A DNA stretch of 64,000 bases from Halolamina sediminis (GTDB lineage: Archaea; Halobacteriota; Halobacteria; Halobacteriales; Haloferacaceae): positions 124,001 through 188,000 of the forward strand of contig NZ_CVUA01000001.1 of the NCBI RefSeq assembly GCF_001282785.1. The letters are read 5' to 3'. Numbering within the stretch: position 1 is the stretch's first letter; each line of letters starts with the position of its first letter. The notes beneath the pieces were generated by a model, which was not told the origin of the DNA, searched no databases, and was given only the letters and a program-made list of their open reading frames with translations. This document shows positions 9,503 to 57,606 of the stretch, piece by piece. The position numbers and the translations under genes were made by a program.

Positions 9503-10974
<1,472 letters not shown>

Positions 10975-11025
10975 CTGACCGGGATCTGCCCTCTGGGCAG
11001 ACCCACCTTTCGCCGTTCGGTGTTT

Positions 11026-11061
11026 CCGGTTCGACCGGGCACCTTAGAACTACCAAAGCTC
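11026..11061 (+). other. 16S processing stem, 3' strand with BHB half
   Basis: CCGG (11026-11029) and ACCGGG (11034-11039) pair with the leader; CACC (11040-11043) forms the central 4-bp helix; TTA (11044-11046) is the second bulge; GAACTACCAAAGCTC (11047-11061) completes the outer stem. The tRNA-Ala gene starts five bases later. Confidence 0.85.
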
Positions 11062-11065
11062 CATA

Positions 11066-11137
11066 GGGCTCGTAGCTCAGTGGGAGAGTGCCTCCTTTGC
11101 AAGGAGGATGCCCGGGGTTCGAATCCCCGCGAGTCCA
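11066..11137 (+). tRNA. tRNA-Ala (TGC)
   Basis: A 72-nt tRNA in the 16S-23S spacer. The acceptor stem is GGGCTCG with CGAGTCC, the discriminator is A, the anticodon loop CTTTGCAA gives anticodon TGC, and the T arm carries GGTTCGAATCC. CCA is not encoded. A tRNA-Ala in this spacer is the standard archaeal arrangement. Confidence 0.97.
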
Positions 11138-11291
11138 TCTCGGATAGAAGGAAACCGTGCGGGTTATATGCCCGACGGAAGTACGATGGAATCCAGAACG
11201 ATCGATGCACCAGACCGCGAGAGCGCGTCTGGGAAGGGTCAGAGTACGCTCCCGTGACACCCACGGGACGTACGTTGACGACCGTGTGTAA

Positions 11292-11322
11292 GCGTAGTCC
11301 AGGCACCCACTGGACCCGTTCA
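11292..11322 (+). other. 23S processing stem, 5' strand with BHB half
   Basis: GCGTAGTCCAG (11292-11302) pairs with CTGGACTACGC downstream of 23S; GCAC (11303-11306) pairs with GTGC; CCA (11307-11309) is the bulge; CTGGACCCGTTCA (11310-11322) pairs with TGAACGGGTCCAG. This is a second perfect bulge-helix-bulge. CGATTACCG (11350-11358) adds a short inner stem next to the 23S 5' end. Confidence 0.85.
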
Positions 11323-11361
11323 CCCGGGTTGCAGTGGAACGACGATAGACGATTACCGACA

Positions 11362-14270
<2,909 letters not shown>

Positions 14271-14303
14271 CGGTAATCGGATATCTCTGCACTGCACCCG
14301 TTT

Positions 14304-14334
14304 TGAACGGGTCCAGGTGCGAACTGGACTACGC
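14304..14334 (+). other. 23S processing stem, 3' strand with BHB half
   Basis: TGAACGGGTCCAG (14304-14316), GTGC (14317-14320), bulge GAA (14321-14323) and CTGGACTACGC (14324-14334) form the partner strand of the 23S bulge-helix-bulge stem. Confidence 0.85.
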
Positions 14335-14354
14335 TTATTGACACGGTTCGATCA

Positions 14355-14397
14355 CACCGAGCATGGTTTGCTCGCGGTTCGATTCCGCGACTCGGCG
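14355..14397 (+). ncRNA. tRNA-like half structure in front of 5S rRNA
   Basis: Immediately before 5S the precursor can fold into an acceptor-like stem (CACCGAG 14355-14361 with CTCGGCG 14391-14397, one mismatch) stacked on a T-arm mimic with a 6-bp stem TCGCGG/CCGCGA and the 7-base loop TTCGATT. D and anticodon arms are missing. In Haloferax volcanii tRNase Z is reported to mature the 5S 5' end at such a structure; here the predicted cut falls exactly at the 5S start. An RNase Z gene is present at 52.7 kb. Confidence 0.8.
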
Positions 14398-14518
14398 TGA
14401 GACGGCCAGAGTGGTGAGGCAACACCCGTACCCATCCCGAACACGGAAGTTAAGCTCACCTACGTGTGGGCGAGTACTGGCGTGGGCGACCCGCTGGGAA
14501 AGTGCACTCGCCGTCTCT
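14398..14518 (+). rRNA. rrf: 5S ribosomal RNA
   Basis: About 121 nt, with the archaeal 5S core CCCGTACCCATCCCGAACAC and GTTAAGCTCACC, and terminal pairing AGACGGC with GCCGTCT. Ends are set by that helix and may be off by one or two bases. It is the last rRNA of the operon. Confidence 0.93.
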
Positions 14519-14649
14519 CTATTCATTGCGGTATACTTGACGTTGTGAGGGGTGAGCGAGTCGATCGCTCTCCGCTCGATCTCCGTGACACACAGCGAAA
14601 GCGCCCGATACGGTACGCTTAAACGACTGAGTGTCCAACCACCAACCGC

Positions 14650-14725
14650 GCCAAGGTGGCAGAGTTCGGCCTAACGCAGCGGCCTGCAGAGCCGCCCACC
14701 GCCGGTTCAAATCCGGCCCTTGGCT
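14650..14725 (+). tRNA. tRNA-Cys (GCA)
   Basis: A 76-nt tRNA with acceptor GCCAAGG/CCTTGGC, discriminator T as expected for cysteine tRNA, anticodon loop CTGCAGA with anticodon GCA, and T arm GGTTCAAATCC. CCA is not encoded. It lies 131 bases beyond 5S; a GCTTAAAC box about 30 bases upstream suggests that it can also be transcribed on its own. Confidence 0.95.
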
Positions 14726-22035: not shown

Positions 22036-22245
22036 ACTGGTCGTGGGTGATCCGTGGGAAAAAGGGTGCCGCGTTGTTCGTCTGCTTCTGTTGATTCGGT
22101 TCGGCTGTGGCTGGAGTCGGCAACACCGTGAAAGCCCCGATGCGTTCGACTCCCGCGGCTCGCTGCGGTCCTCAGTCGCTTCGCTCCCTGCGGTCCTTGC
22201 GTCGCCGGGGTTCGTCGAACACGTCGCCCCTTTCAGTCCCGCCCG

Positions 22246-22341
22246 ACCGCACAGCCCACACGCCTCCCCAGCCGACTCGCTCCCTTCGGTCGCTCGTCCC
22301 TCGCGCTCGGCTCGCGCACGGAGGCGCGAGCGCTTCGCGCC
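22246..22341 (+). repeat. Dispersed intergenic element, copy A (core)
   Basis: The 391-base gap between rio2 and lplA has no gene and holds this element. The core runs from CCGCACAGCCC to CGCTTCGCGCC and is shared with copies at 37.2 and 57.3 kb. It includes CTCCCCAGCCGACTCGCTCC and TCGTCCCTCGCGC and the hairpin CTCGCGC-ACGGAG-GCGCGAG (22311-22330). Sequence before the core (from about 22128, GTGAAAGCCCC to CCCCTTTCAGTCCC) is not found at the other two sites and may be a copy-specific left extension. It lies upstream of two divergent genes. Confidence 0.75.
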
Positions 22342-22425
22342 ACCGCAGCCGTGTCAAGGGCCGCCCCCCGCGTTGTCGGACAATCCCACCGCAACCGCTT
22401 TTCCCCTGCCCGCCCACCCGCGACC

Positions 22426-37150: not shown

Positions 37151-37284
37151 GACCGCGGAGTGAGCTCGACCACTTGCGACCGCACCGCCCCGCACAGCCC
37201 TCGTGCCTCCCCAGCCGACTCGCTCCCTACAGTCGCTCGTCCCTCGCGCTCGGGTCGCGCACGGAGGCGCGACCGTTTCGCGCC
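37151..37284 (+). repeat. Dispersed intergenic element, copy B
   Basis: Lies between the convergent ends of the oxidoreductase and rpl15e genes. It shares GACCGCGGAGTGAGC and the left terminal repeat GACCACTTGCGACCGCA (37168-37184) with copy C, and the core from CCGCACAGCCC to TTTCGCGCC with copies A and C. The internal hairpin is GTCGCGC-ACGGAG-GCGCGAC (37254-37273): the outer pair is changed on both strands relative to copy A. No right terminal repeat is found, so the copy is probably truncated on the right. Confidence 0.75.
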
Positions 37285-37342
37285 GACCGCACAGCAGCAG
37301 CTACTCGGTCTGCATCGAAAGAAAACGGACCGGTGATTGCTG

Positions 37343-37933: not shown

Positions 37934-38169
37934 GGTTCTCTGCGGGCGCTTGCGATTCAGTCGGGCAGTCGGCGGCTCCGCCGCCTTTGGAGGCGCGTCG
38001 CACCTCTTCCGACCACATTTCGTCCCGAGCTATCGGGTGCCCGCTGGCGTCCCGTCGACCAGCGAGTTACCCGTGGATATTCGGGATTCGGTGGTAAGGG
38101 TTTCGAAGCGCCCCGACTCCGGGTCTTCGGGGTCGAGCGAGAAACGCCGACCGATGCCGAGAAGCGAGT

Positions 38170-57112: not shown

Positions 57113-57230
57113 GCTGTTCGGCGTTTCTGTTCGGTCGATTCACCCGAAATATCGGGGTTCGCGTTTGGACAACGAAGTTCGTACCTGAACGTGCTTGAGA
57201 GCGGGGAGTTCCCGTTCTGACCGCGAACAG

Positions 57231-57499
57231 GACCGCGGAGTGAGCATGACCACTTGTGACCGCATCGCCCCGCACAGCCCACAGACCTCCCCACCCGACT
57301 CCTTCCTTCGTTTCACTCAGTCAGTCGTCCCTCGCGCCCGCTCGTCCACGGAGGGACTCGCGCTTCGCGCCGACAGCGACCGCGGTGCGCTGGCGGTGGA
57401 CGCCTCGCGCTCGCCAGCGGTCGGCGAGCGCGGGGGGAGGGGTGGGGACTCGGTGCTGTGCCGGGCCTCGTGCCCGGCACCCTGCGGTCGCAAGTGGTC
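57231..57499 (+). mobile_element. Dispersed intergenic element, copy C, with terminal inverted repeats
   Basis: Occupies most of the 494-base gap between the convergent asd and trmG10 genes. It has the left terminal repeat GACCACTTGTGACCGCA (57248-57264) and right repeat TGCGGTCGCAAGTGGTC (57483-57499), which are inverted with one mismatch. The shared core is 57270-57371, with the hairpin GTCC-ACGGAG-GGAC (57344-57357). Two more hairpins follow: CGCTGGCG/CGCCAGCG (57388-57419) and GTGCCGGGC/GCCCGGCAC (57458-57480). It contains no gene. It resembles a MITE or other non-autonomous element, but no target-site duplication was established. The rest of the gap shows nothing notable. Confidence 0.6.
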
Positions 57500-57606
57500 G
57501 ACGAACGAGCTGCTGTCGCGGTAGCAGCGGTCGCTGTTCGATCAGCCAACGGCAGAGACAACCCGCCTTGATTTCGACTCGAAAAACCTCCCCTTGCTCT
57601 CTCGGT

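Follow-up and report, generated by a model that had tools for sequence, protein, structure and literature searches.

Multi-hairpin cassettes with inverted ends in Halolamina sediminis: a repeat family with inherited sites and probably exchanged contents

The window analysed here is a stretch of 64,000 nucleotides from the Halolamina sediminis chromosome (2.84 Mb), covering positions 124001-188000 of its single contig of 2,835,858 bases. It holds an rRNA operon with tRNA-Ala and tRNA-Cys (9503-14725), an Rfam match to the eL15-Euryarchaeota ribosomal protein leader (37949-38037, minus strand), and three intergenic copies of a repeat, referred to as copies A, B and C. Convergent genes border copies B and C and divergent genes border copy A, as a sequence-only reading of this DNA had stated. 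That reading had described copy C as a gene-less, MITE-like element starting at 57231, with 17-bp inverted ends of one mismatch and three internal hairpins. Copy C indeed contains no gene and has such ends, complementary at 16 of 17 positions: the left end GACCACTTGTGACCGCA at 57248-57264 on the plus strand and the right end TGCGGTCGCAAGTGGTC at 57483-57499 on the minus strand. The copy therefore spans 57248-57499, the proposed start lay 17 nt too far to the left, and the internal hairpins number at least five rather than three.

The cassette is ordered as left end, CGCCCCGCACAGCCC, CCTCCCCAGCC, hairpin A, CCTCGCGC, hairpins B and C, GCGGTGGACGCC, hairpin D, a G-rich run, hairpin E and right end. 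In copy C, a CCTCCCCA-C-C stretch (57286-57296, plus strand) that is conserved class-wide precedes hairpin A (57297-57329, assigned to the minus strand), in which short helices alternate with T/C mismatches on the plus strand, that is, tandem G.A on the minus strand. The conserved linker CCTCGCGC (57330-57337, plus strand) leads from hairpin A to hairpin B (57333-57370), whose inner stem GTCC-ACGGAG-GGAC lies at 57344-57357. Then follow hairpin C (57379-57397), hairpin D (57406-57432), which in other copies is the slot for an optional two-hairpin insert, the conserved G-rich run GGGGGGAGGGGTGGGGA (57432-57448, plus strand), and the covarying 8-bp hairpin E (57459-57479). Folded as single-stranded DNA, copy C is better than its shuffles on both strands (z = -5.2 for the complement and -5.6 for the given strand).

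Both ends are present only in copy C among the three window copies. Copy B (37168-37290, plus strand) starts with the left end of copy C at 37168 and carries the core with hairpins A and B, is cut off past hairpin B and lacks the right part with the right end. Its shared site in G006, the genome that forms the closest pair with H. sediminis by flank similarity, is also truncated there. Copy B was considered as a frozen control and set aside as a single case (n = 1); among the H. sediminis copies it is the second-ranked match to the G006 sequence of its site. Copy A (22250-22346, plus strand) has the core with hairpins A and B, so that a left end and core common to all three copies, as had been proposed, holds for copy B and for copy A only as to the core. 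The core of copy A is joined to a distinct repeat, TGAAAGCCCC...CCCCTTTCAGTCCCGCCC, annotated at 22129-22244 on the plus strand as TGAAAGCCCC...GCCCCTTTCAGTCCCGCCC. This hairpin repeat (TGAAAGCCCC...GCCCCTTTCAGTCCCRCC; L022, L027, L080-L086) also stands directly upstream of the element core in several other haloarchaea. Outside the ends, recurrent flanks of two types are found: beside copy C, the left outer flank (57219-57245, plus strand) is of the GACCGCG...GGAGTGAGC type and the right one (57500-57540, minus strand) of the CAGCAGCTCG type, both of which recur beside other copies, the latter often as inward-pointing 39-bp tandem units. Degenerate tandem units of 39 bp (and of other lengths), pointing inward, flank many copies, for example L002, L019 and L024. 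We considered counting the 39-bp units within the element itself and classed them as flank, because the pattern used detected none in the window.

The expectation that three copies in the window imply many in the genome is confirmed, with tens of copies and aligned edges. A 123-base query gave at least 44 matches in the H. sediminis genome (best 40 of 105 candidates scored). The 17-bp end motif with at most one mismatch occurs 41 + 35 times against 0 + 0 in the control, and its 15-bp form with at most two mismatches 60 + 58 times against 21 + 17 in the reversed control; with at most one mismatch, the 17-bp motif is found 113 times in G006 (control 0) and 1 to 26 times in five other congeners. 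We delimited 51 complete copies of 243-464 nt, after 8 of 55 automatic end pairings had been dropped as spurious or superseded, three right ends set by hand and one copy appended. Together with truncated and chimeric copies, the family comprises about 60 non-coding cassettes. The complete copies form a mosaic in which three kinds of plug-in insert occur. In 14 of 51 copies a forked pair separates hairpin A from hairpin B, in 14 of 51 loop B holds a hairpin pair, and 18 of 51 have a two-hairpin module, its arms flanking TGCCAA, which sits within D or E and may point either way.

Hairpin A consists of two- or three-base-pair helices spaced by T/C mismatches. Over 71 copies in two genomes (56 distinct sequences), its cells on the given strand comprise 532 Watson-Crick pairs, 307 T.C, 4 G.T or A.C, 5 others and no G.A, and on the complement the T.C cells read as tandem G.A pairs. 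The 166 helix dinucleotides are RY 108, YY 50, RR 8 and YR 0. On the complement strand, 44 of 49 triloops have the form GNA and none of 21 tetraloops is GNRA, with one hairpin unparsed; GNA loops are exceptionally stable in DNA. The same architecture is seen in other genera, where 31 loci together yield 192 paired cells and 127 with T/C; five of these loci gave no parsable hairpin, and some are places fetched twice. A formal covariation test, run on hairpin A only, used 24 distinct members of 33 nt: 94.0% of cells are paired against 73.8% in shuffles, double-change cells number 51 against 18.5, and the covariation score is 0.599 against 0.227. None of 500 shuffles was as high in any of these three measures, and slid structures collapse; two of the five measures are not above the shuffles (pairs with a double change, 7 vs. 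5.5; further pair types, 11 vs. 12.2). The internal hairpins covary, and the left and right ends vary independently of each other. The inverted ends were considered as a structural stem, and this role was rejected because, at end positions 2 and 10, the base on the left does not constrain the base on the right.

The mismatches bear on which strand folds. At interior stem positions of the given strand, A.C mismatches outnumber G.T by 15 to 3 (P = 0.0075, for distinct segments that are not independent), a count that leaves aside the outermost position of hairpin D, whose 49 T.G cells on the given strand speak against the complement, and the RNA folding energy is lower on the complement in 43 of 51 copies. 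From these features and from the G.A pairs and GNA loops of hairpin A, we infer that the complement strand folds as single-stranded DNA. The same asymmetry and folding energies, as well as the strong covariation of hairpin A, would also be expected of a structured RNA family with a transcribed complement strand, either as independent small RNAs or as 3'-UTR elements, and most copies do lie downstream of genes. We consider this explanation distinctly unlikely: GNRA is absent from the 21 tetraloops, no copy has an Rfam match at gathering thresholds, so that the family carries covarying structure in hairpin A with no match to a described family, copies are flipped at shared sites (see below), and the orientation relative to genes is balanced. 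In tandem contexts, 14 copies run with the genes and 14 against them, which suggests that the element rather than the neighbouring gene determines the strand; an orientation-specific UTR role was rejected on this count.

The gene context of the 51 complete copies is 20 convergent, 28 tandem and 3 divergent, compared with 12, 30 and 12 among the 54 gene pairs of the window; the gene caller used is crude and over-extends starts, which gives negative distances for some copies. This distribution, the conserved positions of the copies and their class-wide presence are what one would expect of cis-acting DNA architecture or transcription-boundary elements, that is, cruciforms or protein-binding sites at gene 3' ends that have a host function and are homogenised by gene conversion. 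Such a role appears improbable, since the element is absent from copy C's gene pair in five congeners and is hence dispensable there, and since a symmetric cruciform would not be expected to show the strand asymmetry.

At copy C's site, empty sites in relatives, which the sequence-only reading had suggested looking for, are indeed present in five of six congeners. In these five genomes (G001-G005), the two genes lie side by side, with their matched flanks 11-26 nt apart, and the site is filled in H. sediminis and G006 by a block of about 500 nt that includes the element. The simpler reading is that copy C was inserted in the common ancestor of H. sediminis and G006; loss of the element in G001-G005 is possible. 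A second candidate for a clean empty site, L104, is filled in G006 and matches an H. sediminis locus without the element; it was set aside, and it defines no boundary because the gene content there differs too.

Terminal inverted repeats, short length, lack of a transposase gene and this insertion polymorphism (G001-G005 empty, G006 filled) are shared with MITEs, and ends in common with an autonomous transposon were not seen among the fetched loci and the listed motif places. No end pair 0.5-6 kb apart, with at most two mismatches in each end, was found in 175 fetched sequences, so that the transposase with matching ends that the sequence-only reading had suggested looking for did not appear among them, and no autonomous partner is evident among the end-motif places listed. 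A Y1 transposase locus in H. sediminis is in two pieces with an internal stop (G000:C1:2716873-2717231; L094, L096), with a further fragment at 2554893-2555084 (L095); no intact Y1 transposase was found in this genome, the nearest delimited element lies about 17 kb away from the broken locus, and the fragment does not adjoin a delimited copy either. The target-site duplications that had been looked for are not recognisable, in flanks that are repetitive and often differ between H. sediminis and G006 and in empty sites of only 11-26 nt.

To what extent the copies are inherited can be seen from G006. The G006 copies were picked with an insert-free query and 40 of 219 candidates were scored, which biases the insert frequencies in G006. 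Among these 40 copies, 22 have both flanks in one copy-bearing H. sediminis locus, 4 have one flank, 3 have flanks in two H. sediminis loci and 11 have none. The end pair is present in 35 of the 40 fetched copies, and 21 of these have usable H. sediminis partners. Positions are kept in the sister genome, and the identity of orthologs is lost inside the cassette. The ortholog is the best-scoring H. sediminis match for only 1 of 21 shared copies, and its mean identity rank is 21 of 51 compared with 26 expected (n = 21, KS P = 0.28), a difference that may be residual memory. It is different in the outer flanks, where ranks at 42 ends depart from uniform (KS P = 1.3×10−8 and 1.7×10−8 for two stretches) and the true partner ranks first in 10 and 7 of the 42 ends, respectively. 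The junction beside the ends keeps some positional memory (KS P = 0.0002), and the end motif keeps none (KS P = 0.23), which is weak evidence because the motif is so conserved.

Contents also differ in kind and direction. Five of the 21 shared copies are flipped relative to their flanks, with two further split-site comparisons unflipped, and inserts of the same kind are common to both genomes at none of the 21 sites. Linkage between the hairpin slots is absent in 8 of 9 tests, the remaining one giving P = 0.035 (A-D, H. sediminis). Exact tracts of at least 50 nt join 60 of 1275 copy pairs within H. sediminis and 15 of 595 within G006 vs. 16 of 1785 between the genomes, and the longest, of 120 nt, is between copies 2 Mb apart. 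Hairpin alleles at the 21 shared sites match no more often than shuffled ones, which would also be found if the apparent covariation came from templated quasi-palindrome correction during replication, a process known in general, rather than from selection. This origin is extremely improbable here: such correction should perfect the stems, and the T/C mismatches persist in regular spacing over the 71 hairpins with 56 distinct sequences, and in other genera too. In the rearrangements between the two genomes (REARRANGEMENTS), breakpoints fall at element copies. The G006 loci L119 and L130 reciprocally join flanks of the H. sediminis copies 1947869 and 2002974, as after an inversion, L124 joins flanks of two H. 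sediminis loci, and L109 and L126 split the H. sediminis site 2125482; all these arrangements fit recombination between copies.

Inherited sites, memory-less contents and flips together point to a REP/MITE-like family whose contents are exchanged within the genome. We regard it as reasonably probable that this is an end-bounded multi-hairpin cassette family with past transposition, in which content was later overwritten by ectopic exchange and hairpins have been selected for single-strand folding. The copies would once have been inserted via transposition, probably as single-stranded DNA, by an enzyme that is gone or unrecognised. Later, the cassette at an inherited site would have been overwritten from end to end, and sometimes reversed, by ectopic gene conversion or recombination, for which the identical inverted ends would provide homology with other copies on both sides. 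The hairpins would be under selection because the complement strand, with its tandem G.A pairs and GNA loops, must fold single-stranded. Two observations sit uneasily with the exchange: the outer part of the inserted block, more than 100 nt on each side at copy C, is unaccounted for, and the memory at the junction implies either incomplete exchange or a different boundary. If compensatory mutation were fast, memory could be lost with no exchange at all, but the flips and insert differences would be left unexplained. A conceivable though doubtful alternative is that the sites are permanent docks, where a host- or element-encoded activity recognising the inverted ends would keep replacing a folded single-stranded cassette in either orientation, so that the hairpins of a genome would evolve as one shuffled pool and not separately at each site. 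This system would rest on an unusual hairpin, specific to one strand, in which short helices and tandem G.A pairs alternate.

The MITE-like nature proposed in the sequence-only reading stands as to the short, gene-less cassettes, inverted ends and empty sites; the content of shared sites is unlike a static transposon insertion. In an ordinary MITE of a DDE transposase, the 17-bp ends would be transposase sites and the differences at shared sites would come from repeated loss and re-insertion. Nearly invariant ends that do not behave as a paired stem, the empty sites, the absence of coding sequence, and an end motif abundant in G000 (H. sediminis) and G006 and rarer in other congeners agree with this. 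We nevertheless find it unlikely, as no longer element with these ends appears in the 175 fetched sequences or among the motif places listed, no target duplication is seen, the class-wide conservation of the core does not extend to these ends, and at many shared sites inheritance of the outer flanks reaches close to the ends, a pattern that precise re-insertion would have to mimic. Haloarchaeal MITEs likewise are short and non-coding, with inverted ends and empty sites, but for the cassettes no partner transposon and no target duplication was found, and membership in the MITEs in the strict sense is unproven.

The exchanged-cassette family also resembles other known repeats. REPINs and BIMEs, bacterial REP pairs mobilised by RAYT, are likewise extragenic, high-copy, hairpin-forming or palindromic and mosaic, and form long-lived populations; according to PMC3733652, they bear a GTAG or CGTC tag beside the hairpin. 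Unlike them, the cassettes are larger (243-464 nt), have five hairpin slots and 17-bp inverted ends, build hairpin A on tandem G.A, exchange contents at fixed sites and have no intact or linked RAYT/Y1 transposase in the H. sediminis genome. The SMRs of Haloquadratum walsbyi, as described in PMC3119063, are transposase-free, have inverted ends with no relation to transposons known from that organism, show no target duplication and have no known mode of mobilisation; they range from about 80 to 110 bp, and SMR-A, of about 110 bp, targets PATE/IS605 palindromes. The cassettes share with SMRs the haloarchaeal host, the lack of a transposase and the lack of a detected target duplication, and differ from these 80-110-bp repeats in their 243-464 nt and their location between host genes. 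Membership in the REPINs/BIMEs and in the SMRs fails in each case on a tested feature.

Relatives of the element do occur in other haloarchaea; the sequence-only reading had mentioned similar blocks in Halorubrum-like genomes. In the named collection, from which records very near the window may be omitted, exact matches to a 22-base left-end pattern are confined to Halolamina rubra, H. pelagica and H. salifodinae. The element query matched in 145 of 292 sampled Halobacteria genomes and 48 of 77 genera (best two candidates per genome scored), and matches outside Halolamina are mainly to the left half of the cassette. A covariance model of the core, including hairpin A, found it in 85 of 145 genomes and 35 of 58 genera, with at least 37 matches in several genomes. 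Loci examined outside Halolamina have the core without the Halolamina ends, often after the CCCCTTTCAGTCC repeat. The cassette is best explained as an elaboration, within Halolamina, of a hairpin core that occurs widely in Halobacteria. The core was detected in more than half of the Halobacteria genomes searched with the model, and no description of it or of the cassette family was found in the literature listings and abstract openings covered or in passages of PMC2841640, PMC3119063, PMC8049555 and PMC3733652. Breakpoints of rearrangements between the sister genomes are located at copies of the element, and the hairpin architecture makes a testable prediction of which strand folds. Moreover, a repeat whose insertion site is inherited but whose content is not offers a natural case in which exchange among dispersed repeats can be measured apart from transposition.
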